NCBI GenBank assembly: GCA_000155715.1
Contig: DS990598.1
Coordinates: 115,456-179,455 of the forward strand
Origin: a gamma proteobacterium HTCC5015
Lineage (GTDB): Bacteria; Pseudomonadota; Gammaproteobacteria; HTCC5015
Length of the DNA: 64,000 bases
Direction of reading: 5' to 3'
The position numbers were made by a program, and so were the translations under genes. Below, in pieces: positions 1,642 through 11,447 of this stretch; within the stretch, counting starts at the first letter, position 1; every line of letters starts with the position of its first letter. The notes beneath the pieces were generated by a model that saw only the letters and a program-made list of their open reading frames with translations, did not search any database and was not told where the DNA came from.

Positions 1642-3675
1642 ATGAAAAAAACGCAAGCCAGCGCGCTTTCGTCTTATCGACGCGCATTTAAGGTGTCGGC
1701 ACTTGCCGCAGCCATGACTCTTTCTATGAGTACGCCATCGCAGGCCGTGATCCTAGACTTCGGCGACAGTGGTTGGGAAGGTAGCTTAAATACGACATTG
1801 ACTTACGGCTTGGGTATCCGAATGGAAGACCCCGATGCCAGTAACATTGGTCGCGCCAATGGCGGAACGGCCTACTCGGTGAATGGCGACGACGGCAACC
1901 TCAACTTTGAAAAGGGCGATGTGTTTAGTAACGCCTTCAAAGTCAGTTCAGAGTTGTTGGTTGAAAGAGGCGGCTACGGCGCCTTTTTCCGTGTGAACGC
2001 TCTTTATGATGACGTGATTGCCAACGATCGAGTAGCCAGTCGTCCGCTAAATAACCGCAATCAAGGCTTCCCCCGAAATACCTCTGGTTCATTGATGGAT
2101 GGCAAAAAGCCGTTTTCCAGTGACTCGGTTGAATTGGCGGGCGAGCGCCTCGAGTTGTTTGATGCCTATGTGTTTGGCGGCTTTGATGTGGGCGAGCGCT
2201 ATGTCAGCTGGAAAGTGGGTAATCATGTACTCAGTTGGGGTGAGTCCACATTTATTCAAAACAGCATTAACCAAGTGAATCCATTTGATGTGTCAAAGCT
2301 GCGCGTTCCAGGCTCCGAGCTGAAGGACGCGGTGATTCCGGTTCCTATGGTGTCGGGTACCATTGACGTTACGCAGAACAGCACATTGCAGGCTTTCTAT
2401 CAGCTGCGTTCTGAGCCTTTCCGCATTGATCCCACAGGCTCTTACTTTAGTACCAACGATTTTGCGGGCGAAGGTGGTGGCGATCACGGTGTGTTCTTGA
2501 GCTTTGGTGATGCCCACGACAGTGGCAACGATGCCTTGCCTTTCCGTGTGACGCGCGATGACGACCGCGAAGCTGAAGACGATGGCCAGTTTGGCTTGGC
2601 GTATCGTGTCTTCGCGCCGAGTTTGAACGATACGGAGTTCGGCTTTTACTTTATGAACTATCACAGCCGTTTGCCTGTGATCAGCGGTCGCGCTGCTGAT
2701 GCGCAAACGGTACAGAATGCCTCGGCAGCTGCTGATGCAACATTCAATGCAACTGGCAGCAGGTCAGCTGCGGTGGGCGCTTACATCAATGGCTTGGTGA
2801 CCCATGCAGGCAACAATGAGCCCGCCCAGTACTACATTGAGTACCCTGAAGACATTCAGTTACTCGGCGTCAGCTTTAATACGAACTTGGGTCGCACCGG
2901 TGTTGCCTTACAGGGTGAGCTGTCCCACCGACAAGATGTCCCCATTCAAATTGATGATGTGGCTCTGTTGATCGCTGCCATTGCCTCTTCACAGGAAGAG
3001 GGCTGTAACAATGTAAATGATGTTGGTTCTGGCATTGCATGTACAGCCATGACCGATATTGCTAAGGGCGTTCAAATGGGAGCCTTTTCTGCAGGCGATA
3101 CGTTACCCGGCTATGTGCTTCGTGATGTGTCTCAGTTCCAGTCCACAGCTACTAAGGCCTTTAGCCGAGTAGCAGGTGCTGATCGTTTACTCTTAATTGG
3201 TGAAGTGGGCTTTAACTATGTGCACGATTTGCCCAAAAAAGACGAGCTGCTGTTCGAAGTTAACGGGACTTATTTGTCAGGCAATGATATGAGCTTGAAC
3301 GGTGCTACGCAGCCCCCCGGCTCTTATTTGCACCCTGATGATGCGAAAAACCCAGCCAATTTCCAGTCTAAAGATGATTTTGCCGATGATTTTTCATGGG
3401 GCTATATCATCGGTGGCCGTCTCGAATACTCGAACGTATTTAACAATGTTAACTTGAAGCCCAAGTTCTCTTATAAGCACGATGTTAAAGGCAATTCGCC
3501 CGGCCCTGGTGGCAGCTTTGTTGAAGACCGCAAAGCGGCGACGCTGGGTGTGGACTTCGACTATCACCAAGAGTGGTCTGGCGGTGTTAGCTATACAAGC
3601 TACTTCGGTGCAGAACATTTGAACTTGCTGCGCGACCGCGACTTCCTAGCCATGAATGTCCAGTACGCGTTCTAA
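1642..3675 (+). CDS. DUF1302 family outer-membrane protein
   Basis: A 677-residue exported protein. A signal peptide (Lys-rich start, hydrophobic 18-33, SQA cleavage near residue 35) precedes a long, Gly/Asn/Asp-rich sequence with alternating aromatic residues. It ends NVQYAF, a C-terminal aromatic typical of outer-membrane beta-barrels. The family (DUF1302, PF06980) is found beside DUF1329 genes in pseudomonads and hydrocarbon or steroid degraders; its function is not established. ATG 1642 is preferred because GGGGGG lies just upstream; an in-frame TTG at 1630 would precede that site. It is first of a four-gene operon, and the next gene starts 25 bp after its stop. Likely role: an outer-membrane channel or receptor for a hydrophobic compound (inference). 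Confidence 0.85.
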   Translation: MKKTQASALSSYRRAFKVSALAAAMTLSMSTPSQAVILDFGDSGWEGSLNTTLTYGLGIRMEDPDASNIGRANGGTAYSVNGDDGNLNFEKGDVFSNAFKVSSELLVERGGYGAFFRVNALYDDVIANDRVASRPLNNRNQGFPRNTSGSLMDGKKPFSSDSVELAGERLELFDAYVFGGFDVGERYVSWKVGNHVLSWGESTFIQNSINQVNPFDVSKLRVPGSELKDAVIPVPMVSGTIDVTQNSTLQAFYQLRSEPFRIDPTGSYFSTNDFAGEGGGDHGVFLSFGDAHDSGNDALPFRVTRDDDREAEDDGQFGLAYRVFAPSLNDTEFGFYFMNYHSRLPVISGRAADAQTVQNASAAADATFNATGSRSAAVGAYINGLVTHAGNNEPAQYYIEYPEDIQLLGVSFNTNLGRTGVALQGELSHRQDVPIQIDDVALLIAAIASSQEEGCNNVNDVGSGIACTAMTDIAKGVQMGAFSAGDTLPGYVLRDVSQFQSTATKAFSRVAGADRLLLIGEVGFNYVHDLPKKDELLFEVNGTYLSGNDMSLNGATQPPGSYLHPDDAKNPANFQSKDDFADDFSWGYIIGGRLEYSNVFNNVNLKPKFSYKHDVKGNSPGPGGSFVEDRKAATLGVDFDYHQEWSGGVSYTSYFGAEHLNLLRDRDFLAMNVQYAF

Positions 3676-3700
3676 ATTTGTTGTAAAGGGGATGAAAATT

Positions 3701-5077
3701 ATGATGAGCAAAACCGTTAAAACGCTCTGTTCAGTCGCTTTATTAGCGAGTGTCAGTGCGACTGCTCACGCCGCTATCTCGGAAACTGAAGCGAGAAAGT
3801 TGGGTAAGCAGTTAACGCCGATGGGTGCCATTCAGGCGGGTAATGCCGATGGAACGATTCCAGCGTGGACGGGTGGCGTTTCGTCGTCGCCCAAGGGATT
3901 CCGCACGGGGCAACACCATCCGGACCCATTCGCCAACGATAAGCCGCTGTTTAAGATTACTGCGCAGAACTACAAGCAATACGCTGAAAAACTGACGGTC
4001 GGTCAGATTCAGATGTTTGAACAGTATCCCGACAGCTTTTACATGAATGTGTATCCCTCGCGTCGCAGCGCGGCATACCCAGAGCGTGTCTATGAGGCCA
4101 CTCGTCAAGCCGCGACGAGTGCTGAACTGATTTCAAACGGCAATGGCGTGACGAAGTCGGCTAATTGGAGCGGTATACCGTTTCCAATTCCTTCAAGCGG
4201 TGTGGAGGTGATTTGGAATCACGTCCTTCGCTACCGTGGCACGGGTTCGGCGCAGCGCCAAATTGTACAGGCTGTAGTCAACCGCGATGGCGATTACAGC
4301 TTGGTGAAATTTGAAGACGAGTTCTATCCCATCTATGCCGATCCAGGCATTACTGAGGAAGAGCTAGATAACGTTCTGATTTACTTCAAGCAGGAAGTAA
4401 TCTCTCCAGCTCGTTTGGCGGGTGGTATCTTGCTGGTTCACGAAACTTTGAACCAAGAGAAAGAGCACCGCAAAGCGTGGGTTTATAACCCAGGTCAGCG
4501 CCGTGTGCGTCGCGCACCGAATGTGGCTTTTGACAACCCACGTGAAGCCTCTGATGGTTTGGCAACATCCGATCAGTTCGACATGTACAACGGCAGTCCC
4601 GAGCGCTACAACATGGAGCTGAAGGGACGTGAAGAGAAATTCATTTCGTACAACAACTATCGTTTGCACAGCAACGAGGTTAAATACGCGGATATTCTCA
4701 AACCGTTGCACGTTAACCCCGAGCTAGTTCGTTGGGAACTGCACCGTGTTCACGTTGTGGATGCCACGCTGAAAGATGGTCAGCGTCACATCTACAAGCG
4801 CCGCACTTTCTATGTCGACGAAGATTCGTGGCAAGTGGCTGCAGTGGATATCTATGATAACCGCGACAAGCTCTGGCGCGTGTCCTTCGGCCACATGATT
4901 GTCTACTACGACATTCCCGCCGCTTGGACGACGGTAGAAGAGCACATCGATCTTCAATCGGGTCGCTACCTCGTTATTGGCATGAACAATGAAGAGCCTT
5001 CAACCTACACATTTGGCTTGGATCGTTCAGCCGGTGACTACCGCCCGAGCTCGCTACGTCGTGCGGGTCGTCGATAA
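3701..5077 (+). CDS. DUF1329 family periplasmic protein
   Basis: A 458-residue exported protein of the DUF1329 family (PF07044), the usual neighbour of DUF1302. It has a signal peptide (MMSKTVKTLCS... ending ATAHA), then conserved-looking blocks such as LTPMGAIQAGNADGTIPAWTGG near the mature N-terminus and DSWQVAAVDIYDNRDKLWRVS toward the C-terminus. ATG 3701 sits 9 bp after AAAGGGG; the in-frame ATGs at 3692 and 3704 are less well placed. The family is thought to have a LolA/LolB-like beta fold that could bind lipid, but no function is proven. It probably works with the flanking barrel and the downstream propeller and RND transporter (inference from the operon). Confidence 0.85.
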   Translation: MMSKTVKTLCSVALLASVSATAHAAISETEARKLGKQLTPMGAIQAGNADGTIPAWTGGVSSSPKGFRTGQHHPDPFANDKPLFKITAQNYKQYAEKLTVGQIQMFEQYPDSFYMNVYPSRRSAAYPERVYEATRQAATSAELISNGNGVTKSANWSGIPFPIPSSGVEVIWNHVLRYRGTGSAQRQIVQAVVNRDGDYSLVKFEDEFYPIYADPGITEEELDNVLIYFKQEVISPARLAGGILLVHETLNQEKEHRKAWVYNPGQRRVRRAPNVAFDNPREASDGLATSDQFDMYNGSPERYNMELKGREEKFISYNNYRLHSNEVKYADILKPLHVNPELVRWELHRVHVVDATLKDGQRHIYKRRTFYVDEDSWQVAAVDIYDNRDKLWRVSFGHMIVYYDIPAAWTTVEEHIDLQSGRYLVIGMNNEEPSTYTFGLDRSAGDYRPSSLRRAGRR

Positions 5078-5093
5078 AACGCAAAAGCACTCA

Positions 5094-5119
5094 AGCGGCC
5101 AGCACTCCAGCTGGCCGCT
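5094..5119 (+). repeat. Intercistronic hairpin in the envelope operon
   Basis: Perfect 9-bp inverted repeat AGCGGCCAG / CTGGCCGCT with an 8-nt loop. A third TGGCCGCTA copy lies about 30 bp downstream. There is no T-run, so it is not a standard terminator. It may be an mRNA-stabilising or processing hairpin that sets different levels of the DUF1329 and YCF48 products (inference). Confidence 0.6.
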
Positions 5120-5175
5120 ACTATATGGCCTAGTCGATTGGCCGCTATCTATTCTAAGAAATTTCAGGAACAGCC

Positions 5176-6192
5176 ATGAATAAGAAGCTCAGTGTGAAAG
5201 CACTTGTGATAGGGCTGGGGTTTTCTATGGCCCCAATTGTCGCTAGTGCAGCCGACGCATCAAACGCACCTGCCGTGGAACATGCCGTAAAGGCACCTCT
5301 TGCAGAGAAAAGCTTATTGTTGGACGTAGAGCGAGCAGGGGAGCGCCTTATCGCCGTCGGTGGTTACGGCAATATTGTGCTCTCTGATGACGAGGGCAGC
5401 ACTTGGCGTCAGGCTCAGTCAGTGCCCGCTCGAGTCACGCTAACCGCTGTGGATTTTGTCGATGAGAAACGCGGTTGGGCTGTAGGCCACGATGCCGTGA
5501 TATTGAAAACGATCGATGGTGGCGAGAACTGGACTCGGCAGTACTTTGCGCCGGAAGAAGAGCGCCCGCTACTTGAGGTGCAATTTCGAGAAAACGGTCG
5601 CATTGGCTATGCATTGGGTGCTTATAGTTTTCGTTTAGTGAGTAACGATGGCGGTAAAAGCTGGGTATCCAAAGATCTAGCCGATAATGCGGAAACGGAC
5701 TTGGGTATGCCCATTGAGTACCACCTTCACCAAGTCACTAAAGCCAGTAACGGCGTTTGGTATATGTCTGCCGAAGCGGGTATGGCGTATCGATCGTTGG
5801 ATAAGGGTGAAACATGGGATCGTATTCCCCCACCTTATGATGGCTCGTTCTTTGGCGCTTTACCCTTGTTGGGTGAAAGTGTGTTGATGTTTGGTCTTCA
5901 AGGCAGCATCTATCGAACGGATGACGGCGGGGATGATTGGACGGAGATTGCGAACGCTTCTACTGCAACTTTGAATTCCGGCTTGATTATGGACGATGGT
6001 ACGGTTGTTCTAGTTGGCAATGACGGCGCAGTGCTTGTGAGTAAGACGGGCGGCCAGAGCTTCCAAGCCAAAAGCTTGAATGATAGAAAGTCGGTAGCGG
6101 ATGCTATCGAAATTAGTGGTGGAAAATTGTTGTTGGTTGGCGAAATGGGTGCACGCACGATTACGCTGGGTCAACTTAAGGGGGATATCTAA
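5176..6192 (+). CDS. YCF48/BNR-repeat periplasmic beta-propeller protein
   Basis: A 338-residue protein with a signal peptide (hydrophobic 9-24, cleavage near ASAAD) and six Asp-box/BNR-like motifs: SDDEGSTW, TIDGGENW, SNDGGKSW, SLDKGETW, TDDGGDDW and the degenerate SKTGGQSF. This is the YCF48-type seven-bladed propeller fold; HCF136, a photosystem II assembly factor, is the best-known relative. In bacteria the family recurs between DUF1329 and MMPL genes, presumably as a periplasmic scaffold or assembly factor. Its stop codon overlaps the next start (TAATG), so it is translationally coupled to the transporter. Function beyond fold is inferred. Confidence 0.85.
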   Translation: MNKKLSVKALVIGLGFSMAPIVASAADASNAPAVEHAVKAPLAEKSLLLDVERAGERLIAVGGYGNIVLSDDEGSTWRQAQSVPARVTLTAVDFVDEKRGWAVGHDAVILKTIDGGENWTRQYFAPEEERPLLEVQFRENGRIGYALGAYSFRLVSNDGGKSWVSKDLADNAETDLGMPIEYHLHQVTKASNGVWYMSAEAGMAYRSLDKGETWDRIPPPYDGSFFGALPLLGESVLMFGLQGSIYRTDDGGDDWTEIANASTATLNSGLIMDDGTVVLVGNDGAVLVSKTGGQSFQAKSLNDRKSVADAIEISGGKLLLVGEMGARTITLGQLKGDI

Positions 6193-8558
6193 TGTTGGGT
6201 TCAGTCATTCGCGCCGTTGAAGGCTTTATTTTCTCCCAGCGCAAATTGGTTATTGCTGTATTTGCTGTTCTGACCGTCTTGATGGCGGCCTCGGCGACTC
6301 GGCTTGAGATTAAAGCCGGTTTTGAAAAGCTGTTGCCTCTCGAACACGAGTATATGCAAACGTACCTCGAACACCGAGATGAATTTGGTGGTGGTAACCG
6401 TATTTTGATTGCCCTAATGGCGAAAGATGATACGCCGGGCAGCATGTTTACAGGAGAGTACCTAACCGCTTTTGATGCTTTGACGAATCTTGTCTATGCC
6501 ATGCCGGGCATTGAGAAGGCCAAAGTAAAATCTATCTTTACGCCCAATGTTCGTTTCACGGAAATTACCGAAGACGGCATTGATGCGGGCAATGTGATTC
6601 CGCCTGACTACGATGCCGATGATCCCGGCGCGAGTGCGGAGAAAATCCGAAAAAACATATTAAAAGCCAATATTGTCGGCCGCCTCGTTGCCAATGATTT
6701 TACGGGTGCTGCCGTATCTGCACACGCTTTGGAGGTCAATCCAGAAACACAAGAGCCCTACAATCAAGTTGAGATTGCTCAACACCTTTCTCCCGATTTA
6801 ATTTTGCAGCAGATCGAAGAGAGTGTTGTGGCCAGTGGACACAGCTTCGATGCCAGTCAATATGAAGTCCGCGTCATTGGCTTTACCAAAGTGGTGGGCG
6901 ATATTACTGAAGGGGCGGGCAAAGTTGTTCTGTTTTTTGCCGTCGCTTTCCTGATTACTGCGATATTGGTTTACCTCTATTCGCAATCATGGAAGGTCAC
7001 CATTGTCCCTCTCGTTTGCTCGGTGACGGCGGTTATTTGGCAGTTGGGTATCTTGCCTCTCATCGGTTTTGGTATCGATCCCATGTCGATTTTGGTGCCA
7101 TTCCTAATCTTTGCGATTGGTGTGAGTCACGGCGTGCAAATGATTTCTGCCATTGGCTCCGAAGTCTTTAACGGCAAGAATATGTACGATGCGGCTCGCA
7201 AAAGTTTCCGCGTTCTCGCAGTTCCCGGCGGCATTGCACTTGCCAGTGACACGATTGGTTTTATCACCATCTTGTTGATTGATATTGGCATCATTCAAGA
7301 GATGGCGATTACGGCCAGCTTGGGCGTCGCCGTTATTATTTTGACGAACTTGATTCTTTTGCCGGTGCTGATGTCGTTCTTGCCGGTAGATGACAATCTT
7401 CGTGAAAAGTTAAAAACGCGCTCCATCAAACTCGACAAGCTGTGGACGCCCGTGTCGGCGGTAACTGAAAAGAAAAATGCCACCTTGATTGTACTGGTGA
7501 TGCTATTGCTCTTCGCGGTGGGTTACTGGAAAGGCCAAGATGTGCAAATTGGCGATTTGCACCAAGGGGTTCCGGAGCTGCGGGCGGATTCAGAATATAA
7601 CCGCGACACAGCCGTTATTACTGATAAATTCTCAATTGGTGTCGATGTATTAACGGTAATGGCCGAAACCAAATCGAGTGGTTGTAGTGACTACAACATT
7701 ATGACCAGCATCGATCGCTTTGCTTGGCATATGCAAAATGTCGAAGGGGTACAAACGGTTGGCAGTTTGCCGCAAGTGGTTAAAGTCGTGAACGCCGCTT
7801 GGAATGAAGGTTACATGAAGTGGCGAGAACTGCCCCGCAATCAATTTATGATGAACCAGTCATCGGGTCGAATTGATACGACCACGGGGCTTCTGAATAA
7901 AAATTGCAGCGTTATGCCTGTGTACATCTTTACCGAAGATCACAAGGCGCAAACGATTAACCGCATTACCGATGAAGTTAAAGCCTACAACAAAGCGCAT
8001 GGACACGAGGACCTTTCGTTTGAGTTAGCCTCGGGTAATGTCGGTGTTATGGCTGCTACAAACGAGGAAGTATCAGCGGCCCAGTTCAATATGCTGGTCT
8101 ATGTATTTGGTGCTGTGATTCTGATGTGCTTAATTACATTCCGCTCGCTGCGAGGCACGCTGTGTATTGTGATTCCTCTCGCATTGGTATCACTGCTGGC
8201 ATACGCTTTGATGTCGTTGCTAGAAATTGGCTTGAAGGTGAATACGTTGCCAGTAGTTGCGCTGGGCGTTGGTATTGGTGTCGACTACGGCATTTATATC
8301 TTTAGCCGTTTCCAAGAGTATTACCAAAATGGTGGCCACTCGCTTAAGGAGGCCTACCATCGTACGCTCAGTATTACCGGTAATGGCGTGGTCTTTACGG
8401 GTCTGACACTCGGTATCGGTGTTGCCACTTGGATTTTCTCACCATTGAAGTTTCAAGCGGACATGGGGATTTTGTTGACCTTTATGTTTGTTGTGAACAT
8501 GCTGGGAGCAATATTTATATTGCCGGCACTCGCACGCTTGCTCTATCGAGAGCGATAG
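6192..8558 (+). CDS. MMPL/RND-superfamily transporter
   Basis: A 788-residue inner-membrane protein with RND topology: one transmembrane helix near the N-terminus (about 18-36), a large periplasmic domain, five or six helices (about 245-400), another near 433-450, a second periplasmic domain, then a final helix cluster (about 645-785). GVGIGVDYGIYIFSRF near residue 696 resembles the RND helix-4/10 proton-relay region. It belongs with lipid- and hydrophobe-moving RND proteins (MmpL, HpnN-like), not with the larger HAE1 drug pumps. Overlap of one base with the upstream propeller gene implies coupled translation. An intrinsic terminator follows. Substrate unknown; export or movement of hydrophobic molecules between membranes is the likely job. 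Confidence 0.88.
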   Translation: MLGSVIRAVEGFIFSQRKLVIAVFAVLTVLMAASATRLEIKAGFEKLLPLEHEYMQTYLEHRDEFGGGNRILIALMAKDDTPGSMFTGEYLTAFDALTNLVYAMPGIEKAKVKSIFTPNVRFTEITEDGIDAGNVIPPDYDADDPGASAEKIRKNILKANIVGRLVANDFTGAAVSAHALEVNPETQEPYNQVEIAQHLSPDLILQQIEESVVASGHSFDASQYEVRVIGFTKVVGDITEGAGKVVLFFAVAFLITAILVYLYSQSWKVTIVPLVCSVTAVIWQLGILPLIGFGIDPMSILVPFLIFAIGVSHGVQMISAIGSEVFNGKNMYDAARKSFRVLAVPGGIALASDTIGFITILLIDIGIIQEMAITASLGVAVIILTNLILLPVLMSFLPVDDNLREKLKTRSIKLDKLWTPVSAVTEKKNATLIVLVMLLLFAVGYWKGQDVQIGDLHQGVPELRADSEYNRDTAVITDKFSIGVDVLTVMAETKSSGCSDYNIMTSIDRFAWHMQNVEGVQTVGSLPQVVKVVNAAWNEGYMKWRELPRNQFMMNQSSGRIDTTTGLLNKNCSVMPVYIFTEDHKAQTINRITDEVKAYNKAHGHEDLSFELASGNVGVMAATNEEVSAAQFNMLVYVFGAVILMCLITFRSLRGTLCIVIPLALVSLLAYALMSLLEIGLKVNTLPVVALGVGIGVDYGIYIFSRFQEYYQNGGHSLKEAYHRTLSITGNGVVFTGLTLGIGVATWIFSPLKFQADMGILLTFMFVVNMLGAIFILPALARLLYRER

Positions 8559-8568
8559 GTCTTAATAA

Positions 8569-8594
8569 GGGGCGCCTAGAGCGCCCCTTTTTTT
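8569..8594 (+). terminator. Intrinsic terminator of the envelope operon
   Basis: Stem GGGGCGC / GCGCCCC with a 5-nt loop (CTAGA), followed by seven T residues. It lies 10 bp after the transporter stop codon and closes the four-gene operon before the TetR gene. Confidence 0.93.
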
Positions 8595-8636
8595 GTTGTA
8601 GGGCCGATGAAAGTAGAGAGCCGTACTTATTGACGC

Positions 8637-9287
8637 ATGAAAACTAAAGAACGCATATTGCTGACCAGCTTGGACTTGTTTAATCGCTATGGAGAGCCTG
8701 CGGTGACGACGAATCACATCGCAGATGAAATGGAGATTAGTCCAGGGAACTTGTATTACCACTACCGCAATAAAGAAGACATCTTATTGTGTCTCTACGA
8801 GCGTTTTGAAGAGGCCTTACTAGAAGCGTTAAAGGCGCCGGAACCCGAGGCAGTTAAGCTCGAAAATATGTGGCTCTTTCTCCATCTTATTTTTGAAAAC
8901 ATTTGGCACTATCGTTTCTTTTATCGCGATCTCGACCATATTCTCTCCAAGAGTGAAAAGATAAAACGGCGCTATTCTCGCGTACTCCTTAAAAAAATTG
9001 ATACTGCAAAGTTGCTCTGCACGGGCTTGAGTGAGCGCGGTATTTTGGTGGCCAGTGCCAGTGAAATCGACGCTTTATCCCACAATATGGCCCTAACGGC
9101 GAGCTACTGGCTCAATTTTCAGTCAGCGTTGCAAAAGAGCCCCCAAGACGAACTGAGCGCTAAAGATATTAGCCTCGGCGTTTACCAGGTAATGGCGTTG
9201 ATTGCGCCTTATCTGCGCGATGAAGAGCGCGGTATGTTGCAGTCTTTAAGTCGCGTCTACCTCGGCGATACGCTCAGCAATGGCTAG
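8637..9287 (+). CDS. TetR/AcrR-family transcriptional regulator
   Basis: A 216-residue repressor-like protein. The N-terminal helix-turn-helix is clear: KERILLTSLDLFNRYG, then TTNHIADEMEISPGNLYYHYRNKEDIL (about residues 4-55). The C-terminal ligand/dimer domain is helical with aromatic clusters (HYRFFYRDLDHIL). It sits between the terminator of the envelope operon and the convergent fatty acyl-CoA reductase gene. Candidate targets are dyads upstream of both (1588-1601 and 11569-11605). The ligand is unknown; an acyl-CoA or other hydrophobic effector is plausible from context only. Confidence 0.9.
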   Translation: MKTKERILLTSLDLFNRYGEPAVTTNHIADEMEISPGNLYYHYRNKEDILLCLYERFEEALLEALKAPEPEAVKLENMWLFLHLIFENIWHYRFFYRDLDHILSKSEKIKRRYSRVLLKKIDTAKLLCTGLSERGILVASASEIDALSHNMALTASYWLNFQSALQKSPQDELSAKDISLGVYQVMALIAPYLRDEERGMLQSLSRVYLGDTLSNG

Positions 9288-9461: not shown

Positions 9462-11447
9462 TTACCAATGAATGCCGCGTGTGAGTTGGGCAAAGGCCAT
9501 TTGCTCGGCAGAAACGGCCGCCGCCTTGTCCGACTTCTCACCTCGCGCAGCTGCGGAATCGGGGAACAGTGTAAAGGCGGTGTTGAGTACCACTTCTGTG
9601 AGCTTGGGTGCCAAGGAGTGCATGACAGAAGCGGTGGTGCCAAGTCGCGTGGCAATGCGCTTGGGCCGTTTGATAATCGCTTCAGCGACCAAATCAGCCG
9701 CTTCCTCGGGGGTGTAGGTGGGCACGTGATTGTACATCTTTGTGGGAGCAATCATGGGTGTGCGCACCAGCGGCATATTGATGGTGGTAAAACGGATGTT
9801 GTCGCTAGAAAACTCCGAGGCAGCGCACTGGCTAAACGCATCTAGCGCCGCTTTAGAGGCGACATAGGCCGAGAAGCGGGGCGAGTAGCTGAGTACGCCA
9901 ATAGACGAGATGTTGATGACGTGGCCGCCGCGCTTTTCGATCATTTTGGGTAGGAAGCCCATCGTCAGGCGTAGACAGCCAAAGTAATTCAGTTGCATCG
10001 TGCGCTCGTAGTCGTGGAAGCGATCAAAGGAGAGCGCAACTGAGCGACGAATAGAGCGACCTGCATTGTTGATTAGAATATCGATACCACCGAGATCTTT
10101 GTTGACTTGTTCTGCCAAGCGATCGCAGTCATCGAGGTCTGAGATGTCGCAGGTGTAAATGTAGGCTTCGCCACCCACTTTCTTCATTTTTTCAGCAGTT
10201 GCTTTCAACTTATCGGCATTTCGAGCCACGATAACCACTTTGCCCCCCGCCTCTGCGAGGCGCAGTGCCGTGGCTTCGCCAATGCCCGAAGAGGCGCCTG
10301 TTACCATCACGACTTTTCCAGAGATGCGTCCGCCCAAGCTGCGATCAATAAATAGATCGGGGTCCATATTGCGTTCCCAGTAATCCCATAGGCGCCAGGC
10401 GTAGTCTTTGATGTCGGGGGCCTTGATACCCGTTCCTTTCAGTATTTTTCGGGTTTCTCGGTTGTCGAAGCGAGTGGGATGGTTGACGAATTTGAGCAGG
10501 TCGGCGGGAATACCCAAGTCGTTGCTGATGGCATTGATAAATCGCTGTACTGGCGGAATTTCAGCGACACCGCTGACGATGTACGAAGGAATAAAGGAAA
10601 ACATTTTTGCGTTGATGCGCATCGTCATTTGAGGAGCGTGAGCGGCATCGGCAAAAATGTTGATGACCTCGCCGATACGGCGTGGGTTGTCTTCGGTAAG
10701 GTGGAAGCACTGGCCGTTCAAGCCACGCTGGTGCGAGATGTAGGTCATTGCATCGACGACAAAATCCACCGGGACAATGTTCCAAGTACCGCCTTCTAGA
10801 CCGACGAGAGGCATCCACTTGGGCATGTTGTTGCGCAGTTTTTGCAGGCTCTTAAAGAGGTAGTAGGGGCCGTCGATTTTGTCCATCTCACCGGTTTTTG
10901 AATCGCCGACGACGACGCCGGGACGATAGACCCGCCATGGAATATCGCACTCTTTGCGTACGATGCCCTCGGAGTCGTGCTTGGTGCGGAAGTAGGGGTG
11001 ACCCAGACCCTCGGCCTCTTCGAACATGTCTTCGCGGAAAACGCCGGAGTAAGTGCCCGCTGCTGCGATGGAGCTGGTGTGGTGAAAACAGCCCGCCTCA
11101 ATGGCTTCGGCAAGCTGAATGGCATTGCGTGTCCCTTCGATGTTAGCGGTTTCCTGTGCCTCCGCGCTGGCGCTTAAATCGTAGATGGCCGCGAGGTGGT
11201 AAAAGTGCTTGATATTGCCCTTGAGCTCTTTGAGCTTAGCGGCGCTGACGCCCAGCTTGTTGCGAGACAGATCTCCGGTAACGGGGACGATACGGTCGCC
11301 GCCGCCCCATTGTTTGATCAGCTGATTAAGCTTTTTCTTTGAGCCACTGCGCGTTAGCACATAGATCGTGCCGCGCTTTTCATTGAGCAGTTTTTGAACG
11401 AGGCGTTTGCCAATAAAGCCGGTGGCGCCGGTAACGAAATAAGCCAT
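9462..11447 (-). CDS. Two-domain fatty acyl-CoA reductase (alcohol-forming, Marinobacter wax-ester type)
   Basis: A 661-residue NADPH-dependent enzyme expected to reduce long-chain acyl-CoA through the aldehyde to a fatty alcohol, the alcohol supply for wax esters. The N-terminal extended-SDR reductase domain has TGATGFIG (residues 7-14) and YxxxK (Y152/K156). The C-terminal classical SDR domain has TGASSGIG (383-390), NNAG (460-463), the catalytic Ser region ISSIG, and Y528/K532. Length and running sequence agree, as far as I recall it, with the characterised Marinobacter VT8 reductase Maqu_2507. AGGGGAAGG precedes the ATG. No wax ester synthase/DGAT is in the window, so the product's fate here is inferred. 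PHA genes lie upstream. Confidence 0.9.
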   Translation of the reverse strand: MAYFVTGATGFIGKRLVQKLLNEKRGTIYVLTRSGSKKKLNQLIKQWGGGDRIVPVTGDLSRNKLGVSAAKLKELKGNIKHFYHLAAIYDLSASAEAQETANIEGTRNAIQLAEAIEAGCFHHTSSIAAAGTYSGVFREDMFEEAEGLGHPYFRTKHDSEGIVRKECDIPWRVYRPGVVVGDSKTGEMDKIDGPYYLFKSLQKLRNNMPKWMPLVGLEGGTWNIVPVDFVVDAMTYISHQRGLNGQCFHLTEDNPRRIGEVINIFADAAHAPQMTMRINAKMFSFIPSYIVSGVAEIPPVQRFINAISNDLGIPADLLKFVNHPTRFDNRETRKILKGTGIKAPDIKDYAWRLWDYWERNMDPDLFIDRSLGGRISGKVVMVTGASSGIGEATALRLAEAGGKVVIVARNADKLKATAEKMKKVGGEAYIYTCDISDLDDCDRLAEQVNKDLGGIDILINNAGRSIRRSVALSFDRFHDYERTMQLNYFGCLRLTMGFLPKMIEKRGGHVINISSIGVLSYSPRFSAYVASKAALDAFSQCAASEFSSDNIRFTTINMPLVRTPMIAPTKMYNHVPTYTPEEAADLVAEAIIKRPKRIATRLGTTASVMHSLAPKLTEVVLNTAFTLFPDSAAARGEKSDKAAAVSAEQMAFAQLTRGIHW

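Follow-up and report, generated by a model that had tools for sequence, protein, structure and literature searches.

Cassettes of the kind analysed here have been met by at least four groups, as the phn island and its nanopods, as AmeABCD, as the Tween 20 genes of Pseudomonas putida and as the 'Nanopod' cluster of a benzene degrader. In Castellaniella defragrans 65Phen, AmeABCD, with accessions CDM25259-CDM25262, was described by Puentes-Cala and Harder (2018) as a trans-envelope system for hydrophobic molecules, for which a role in export was proposed (PMC6394551). Deletion of ameABCD lowered the tolerance to monoterpenes (limonene) and slightly raised Nile Red accumulation, the latter only with CCCP; the mutant grew poorly on hydrocarbons but normally on the more polar perillyl alcohol (PMC6394551). 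In P. putida the same four families are found in two loci, AB and CD (PP_0765, PP_0766, PP_2018 and PP_2019), and all four genes are required on Tween 20, a laurate ester; AlphaFold co-folding predicted a strong C-D contact and weak A-B and B-D contacts (PMC10866462). The consecutive genes DelCs14_1756-1758 of the Delftia acidovorans Cs1-4 phn island encode DUF1302, DUF1329 and phnL/YCF48, the same A-B-C families, and were read by their authors as a vesicle or nanopod trait for phenanthrene, with no RND gene mentioned in the text covered here (PMC3110197, PMC3958437). Nanopods contain DelCs14_1756 and 1757, the DUF1302 and DUF1329 proteins (PMC3110197), and disruption of phnL (1758, YCF48) reduced vesicles, delayed growth on phenanthrene and caused metabolites to leak (PMC3958437). 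In ORM2a (Candidatus Anaerobenzenivorax), an anaerobic benzene degrader reported in 2026, a porin-like protein, DUF1329, YCF48 and MMPL are encoded together, as in the locus described below, with two extra genes between B and C, one of them for a universal stress protein; the set is highly expressed, and a role in benzene movement was proposed, the direction being left open (PMC13101534). This last paper credits Shetty and Hickey (2014) with a DUF1329 deletion (DelCs14_1722), while the 2014 paper names phnL (Delcs14_1758, YCF48), which is followed here. Our literature search found no paper joining all four names of the cassette. Taken together, these studies open the direction of transport, and with it the way in which Gram-negative cells carry very hydrophobic food through the periplasm, to direct testing. 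New here are this joined literature, the lipase and beta-oxidation context of the clade to which our locus belongs, a candidate divider between the B and C genes, and invariant putative relay residues in the transporter.

The window, a stretch of 64,000 nucleotides of contig DS990598.1 of the gamma proteobacterium HTCC5015, carries four plus-strand genes at 1642-8558, as read from the sequence and its open reading frames. An earlier note on this DNA had assigned them to DUF1302, DUF1329, YCF48 and MMPL, and strong Pfam matches were obtained for all four. The ameA-like gene (1642..3675), preceded by an RBS-like GGGGGG at 1632-1638, encodes a 677-aa predicted outer-membrane beta-barrel (DUF1302/PF06980) ending in Phe. 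The ameB-like gene (3692..5077) encodes a putative periplasmic LolA-fold carrier of 461 aa (DUF1329/PF07044); its start is most likely at 3692, with AGGGG upstream, since the alternative at 3656 would run into ameA. The ameC-like gene (5176..6192), for a putative periplasmic Asp-box propeller of 338 aa (YCF48/BNR), follows after 98 nt, and its stop overlaps the start of the ameD-like gene (6192..8558), for a putative HAE3/MMPL RND inner-membrane transporter of 788 aa, in a TAATG at 6190-6194. The N termini of AmeA, AmeB and AmeC are signal-peptide-like as read directly from the sequence. A rho-independent terminator at 8567..8596 on the same strand (9-bp stem at 8567-8589 with 7 G-C pairs, then a T run) closes the cassette, which is flanked by relA and by a plus-strand TetR-family gene (8637..9287; PF13972, 1.9e-44); the signal peptides, the coupling of the last two genes and the terminator had all been noted before and are confirmed. 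Further on, at 9462-11447, lies a gene for a 660-aa fused reductase (NAD_binding_4 + adh_short, PRK07201) that resembles fatty acyl-CoA reductases and adjoins phasin and FFLEE-motif genes.

Judged by its family set and gene order, the cassette appears to be of the AmeABCD type. Four families, order and an HAE3-lineage RND are shared with C. defragrans, the comparison being of families, order and lengths, which are similar (605/451/316/787 aa for A/B/C/D in C. defragrans vs 677/461/338/788 aa here), not of sequences. In C. defragrans the genes lie in a monoterpene-degradation island and are monoterpene-induced, whereas in the window they lie on the chromosome next to relA and have no genes for monoterpene use adjoining them. 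The cassette is thus an already described set, real and well conserved, and the view taken in the earlier note of these families as a recurring set of undefined function is out of date, because it overlooked the AmeABCD, Delftia, P. putida and ORM2a studies. Its proposal of one trans-envelope system for hydrophobic molecules agrees with the 2018 model, which comes with a deletion phenotype (PMC6394551), and with the contacts between the parts predicted for P. putida (PMC10866462).

AmeA matches DUF1302 at E=1.6e-175. AF2 models of AmeA and AmeB were built with 20-21 homologues, and that of AmeA is a barrel (pLDDT 77, pTM 0.78) for which Foldseek returned the porin-like barrels AlgE, Occ and OmpF, at low query TM (0.3-0.38). 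A FadL/Toluene_X channel was considered for AmeA and set aside: PF03349 is absent, DUF1302 is the sole Pfam match, and the top structural matches are porin, Occ and AlgE. AmeB matches DUF1329 (9e-147) and LolA_like PF17131 (1.4e-8), and is predicted by its model (pLDDT 87) to adopt a LolA superfamily fold; the best Foldseek match is LolA3 of Porphyromonas gingivalis (9tp6, TMt 0.85), followed by the DUF1329 protein 4z48 (0.73), 3bk5, LolA and LolB. The candidate role of a true LolA lipoprotein carrier was rejected, as its partners in the cassette are an RND protein and a barrel, not LolCDE/LolB, and AmeB would be at most Lol-carrier-like in its working.

AmeC matches PSII_BNR/YCF48 (9.9e-24) and, by profile, the Ycf48 structures 2xbg, 5ojr and 5oj5 (E 1e-31). 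Of the six Asp-box motifs reported previously, five are canonical and the sixth is degenerate (SKTGGQSF). These repeated boxes and the profile match point to an Asp-box propeller of the Ycf48 kind, though not to Ycf48 itself, since AmeC scores 89 bits against the NCBIfam Ycf48 equivalog, the cut-off of which is 326. AmeD matches MMPL PF03176 (7.8e-25); its closest NCBIfam model is HAE3 TIGR00921 at 167 bits, under the model's 352-bit cut-off, and a profile search found MmpL5/4/3 and HpnN (5khn) as its kin in the PDB. D296, S312, H313, Q316, D698, Y699 and Y702 are invariant in 106/106 AmeD sequences. D698-Y699 lies in TM10, and the position in TM4 is held by S312-H313, with D296 nearby; when the two repeats are aligned by eye, S312-H313 aligns with D698-Y699, so that an unvarying S-H takes the place of the D-Y found in the TM10 repeat. 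HpnN and MmpL3/4/5 share with AmeD the RND/HAE3-MMPL architecture and the D-Y pair of TM10, a relay in MmpL3; AmeD differs from them in its S-H, and to our knowledge they have no DUF1302, DUF1329 or YCF48 partners. With its MMPL domain and conserved charged residues in TM4 and TM10 that may form a proton relay, AmeD fits a putative HAE3/MMPL RND transporter. A periplasmic Cys pair (C498 in 100/106 and C572 in 92/106 sequences) perhaps forms a disulfide.

At the thresholds used, 39 of 231 genomes sampled evenly across the class had a strong DUF1329 and 35 a strong DUF1302; the propeller was present in 34 and the RND protein in 37. DUF1329 and RND occurred together in 37 of the 39 genomes with DUF1329, DUF1329 alone in two, in one of which (G163) the locus is cut by a contig end, and RND alone in none; the co-occurrence of the four families gave Fisher p values of 1e-33 to 1e-41, computed on genomes that are related, not independent. 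Related loci numbered 100, of which 20 came from the class sample and 80 from genome contigs of several phyla. The exact ABCD order is kept in 84 of them, and most of the others are shortened by contig ends. The families therefore do not scatter independently, in line with the co-occurrence claimed earlier. Rearranged sets are found in G080 and G190 (B-A-D-C) and in G199, where AB lies apart from CD; two tandem ameB genes occur in L097, L118 and L108, the first coding for about 630-660 aa in L097 and L118, and the A-C-D cassettes of L134 and L143 (Nitrospirillum) have no ameB alongside. In the genome that contains the window (2.6 Mb, estimated 98.9% complete), DUF1302, full-length DUF1329 and AmeD are each present once, and the other RND/MMPL proteins are 20-26% identical to AmeD. 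The complete genome G002, from the same family, lacks the cassette, which is therefore an accessory trait.

That the four genes form a single uniform operon can only be presumed, since the 98-nt gap between ameB and ameC holds a strong hairpin at 5094..5119 on the plus strand (AGCGGCCAGC-ACTCCA-GCTGGCCGCT), a candidate expression divider that has no T run. The gap folds with an MFE of -31 kcal/mol (z = -2.8), and no promoter-like match was found in it. Across the 84 loci the median gaps are 14 nt for A-B, 53.5 nt for B-C and 3 nt for C-D. Among the 57 relatives with a B-C gap of at least 30 nt, a terminator-like hairpin is present in 36 (2.2 in mononucleotide shuffles) and a stem of at least 8 bp in 39 (9.4 in such shuffles), and 40 of the 53 gaps of at least 45 nt, the window's included, fold at z < -2 against dinucleotide shuffles. 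In the relatives (L064-L163) the hairpin is often followed by a T run, and its sequence varies by group while its position is kept. This recurrence suggests that more A and B than C and D are made. The spectral counts of the ORM2a cluster, uncorrected for protein size or membrane location, agree with such a ratio (barrel 106, DUF1329 158, YCF48 65, MMPL 60; PMC13101534), and the division of the P. putida genes into AB and CD loci agrees with a divide at this point.

The genes next to the cassette in relatives point toward lipid use. Directly upstream of the cassette, and on its strand, 10 loci have a VolA/Pla-1 lipase gene, at distances from a 46 nt overlap to a 57 nt gap; those tested match TIGR03502 or PF12262, and that of L074 is broken into two frames. 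FadB-FadA lies directly upstream of the cassette in L082, L085, L145 and L152, an acyl-CoA ligase-FadB-FadA-acyl-CoA dehydrogenase group directly downstream in L084 and L089, and an acyl-CoA ligase adjoins it in L064, L081 and L085. Combined arrangements are FadB-FadA-VolA-ABCD in L074, VolA-ECH-ABCD-ligase in L081 and FadB-FadA-ABCD-ligase in L085. A lipase or beta-oxidation-type gene within 3.5 kb was counted in 21 of the 100 loci, a raw count uncorrected for background. In the tree, the ameD of the window belongs to a clade of 26 sequences (SH-aLRT 99), and 10 of the other 25 members (L064, L070, L071, L074, L081, L082, L084, L085, L087 and L089) have a VolA-type lipase, an acyl-CoA ligase or FadBA as neighbours, among them both its nearest row in the tree (L064) and the most identical sequence (L085). 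The association looks recurrent, because several regions of the tree that lie apart show it, and it supplies a concrete candidate substrate, fatty acids, with named relatives. The suggested arrangement, a surface lipase with an outer-membrane channel for hydrophobes, recalls the VolA-FadL pair of Vibrio; in V. cholerae, VolA releases fatty acids that FadL then imports (PMC12208996).

Other surroundings were less informative. Plasmid ABCD copies annotated in Massilia, Azoarcus and P. putida also fall in the AmeD tree, the C. defragrans AmeD being outside the alignment. Divergent plasmid copies are embedded in catabolic clusters whose genes encode dioxygenases, aldehyde dehydrogenases, acyl-CoA dehydrogenases and CoA transferases or ligases; in the gene table of plasmid pBHB only the D gene appears, among transposases. 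Since plasmid copies sit in aromatic or other catabolic clusters, membership of the family does not by itself reveal the substrate, and the plasmid surroundings were discarded as a clue, being catabolic but of mixed substrates. In 27 loci, largely of marine Gammaproteobacteria (Alteromonas, Shewanella, Colwellia), pepN and gdhB flank the cassette, with a downstream 336-aa gene; this is a housekeeping context that gives no functional signal.

The lipid or hydrocarbon role suggested in the earlier note drew on wax and PHA genes next door, a connection that was not borne out. The acyl reductase and phasin genes lie beyond the terminator and the TetR gene as seen from the cassette, and among the 100 related loci neither has a homologue beside the cassette, apart from L064 and L127, which show partial SDR matches, nor has TetR at E<=1e-10. 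No wax ester synthase (WS/DGAT) was found in the genome, by a search that gave no match in control genomes either. Fatty-acid and lipid catabolism offers a better context, although the cassette has no lipid-catabolic gene next to it in the window. The single VolA-like PF12262 protein found in the genome (954 aa, with a lipobox-like N terminus) is encoded about 7 kb upstream of ameA (L166 7700-10564, C30). One FadL homologue is encoded in the same genome, and the cassette is thus not the sole possible fatty-acid route; FadL is not known to work with an RND, LolA-like or propeller partner.

By analogy with the described relatives, the cassette would take part in the transport of hydrophobic molecules and in tolerance to them. 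We think it probably is a proton-driven, LolA-carrier-mediated hydrophobe transporter that serves the use of lipids or fatty acids (or hydrocarbons) by uptake or retention. The AmeA barrel would provide the route through the outer membrane, AmeB would shield the molecule across the periplasm, and AmeC would act as the periplasmic partner of AmeD. Here and in close relatives the substrate would most likely be fatty acids or other acyl lipids freed outside the cell, lipid use being probable in this organism because close relatives repeatedly adjoin lipases and fatty-acid-burning enzymes; uptake or retention seems likelier than pure efflux. An outside lipase and inside ligase or beta-oxidation genes flanking the cassette in relatives favour this lipid reading, as do growth defects on the hydrophobic substrate beside normal growth on more polar ones (perillyl alcohol, pyruvate), and they are not decisive. 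Neighbouring genes give no direct evidence of a substrate, and the relA/TetR flanks and the FadL homologue of the present genome speak against it. A more specific version, to be held tentatively, is that AmeABCD systems are importers driven by the proton motive force, the RND protein drawing, together with a LolA-like carrier and a barrel, surface-released fatty acids or hydrocarbons inward for acyl-CoA activation and beta-oxidation, with AB and CD made unequally by way of the recurrent intergenic terminator or hairpin. If true, RND import of this kind would contrast with the known exporters of the superfamily.

The published AmeABCD model places the system in the opposite direction, AmeD expelling toxic free fatty acids, terpenes or hydrocarbons from the inner membrane via B, C and A to the exterior, to the protection of cells that live on these compounds. 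The sole study of a whole-cassette mutant favours such export through lowered limonene tolerance and slightly higher Nile Red (PMC6394551), the solved RND relatives that were found, MmpL3/4/5 and HpnN, are exporters, and catabolic neighbours would equally suit self-protection during growth on a compound. However, the Nile Red difference is small and confined to CCCP, poor growth on hydrocarbons with normal growth on perillyl alcohol suits an uptake defect too, and a lipase directly upstream with acyl-CoA ligase or FadBA alongside points to acquisition; moreover, neither the membrane-fusion adaptor nor the TolC-type channel of HAE1 (AcrAB-TolC type) systems is encoded in the cassette. We regard an efflux or tolerance pump as rather unlikely here. 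Quite improbable, in our judgement, is a system that would bring to the outer membrane or to vesicles either a lipid made by the cell itself (wax, hydrocarbon, sterol- or hopanoid-like) or a lipid cargo. The Lol-like carrier logic, the kinship with HpnN and, in Delftia, the nanopod location and the phnL phenotype (PMC3110197, PMC3958437) would accord with it, as would L080 (12580-15187), possibly a lipid-linked variant of the cassette, where a WS/DGAT gene begins 4 nt after ameD and is followed by an HMG-CoA reductase gene. Such a neighbour occurs in this one locus only, the window's genome yielded no WS/DGAT in a search whose controls were silent too, and a same-family genome lacking the cassette (G002) argues that a general envelope lipid does not depend on it.

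Besides the cassette analysed above, the same genome carries at L169 2927-5869 (C21) a TetR gene together with genes for a 275-aa LolA-like protein (weak DUF1329) and a 450-aa signal-peptide protein. From its gene content, this trio gives the impression of a second carrier cassette, smaller and with no RND gene beside it. Similar groupings of RND, LolA-like and DUF1302-like genes occur elsewhere, for instance in G055:C2.
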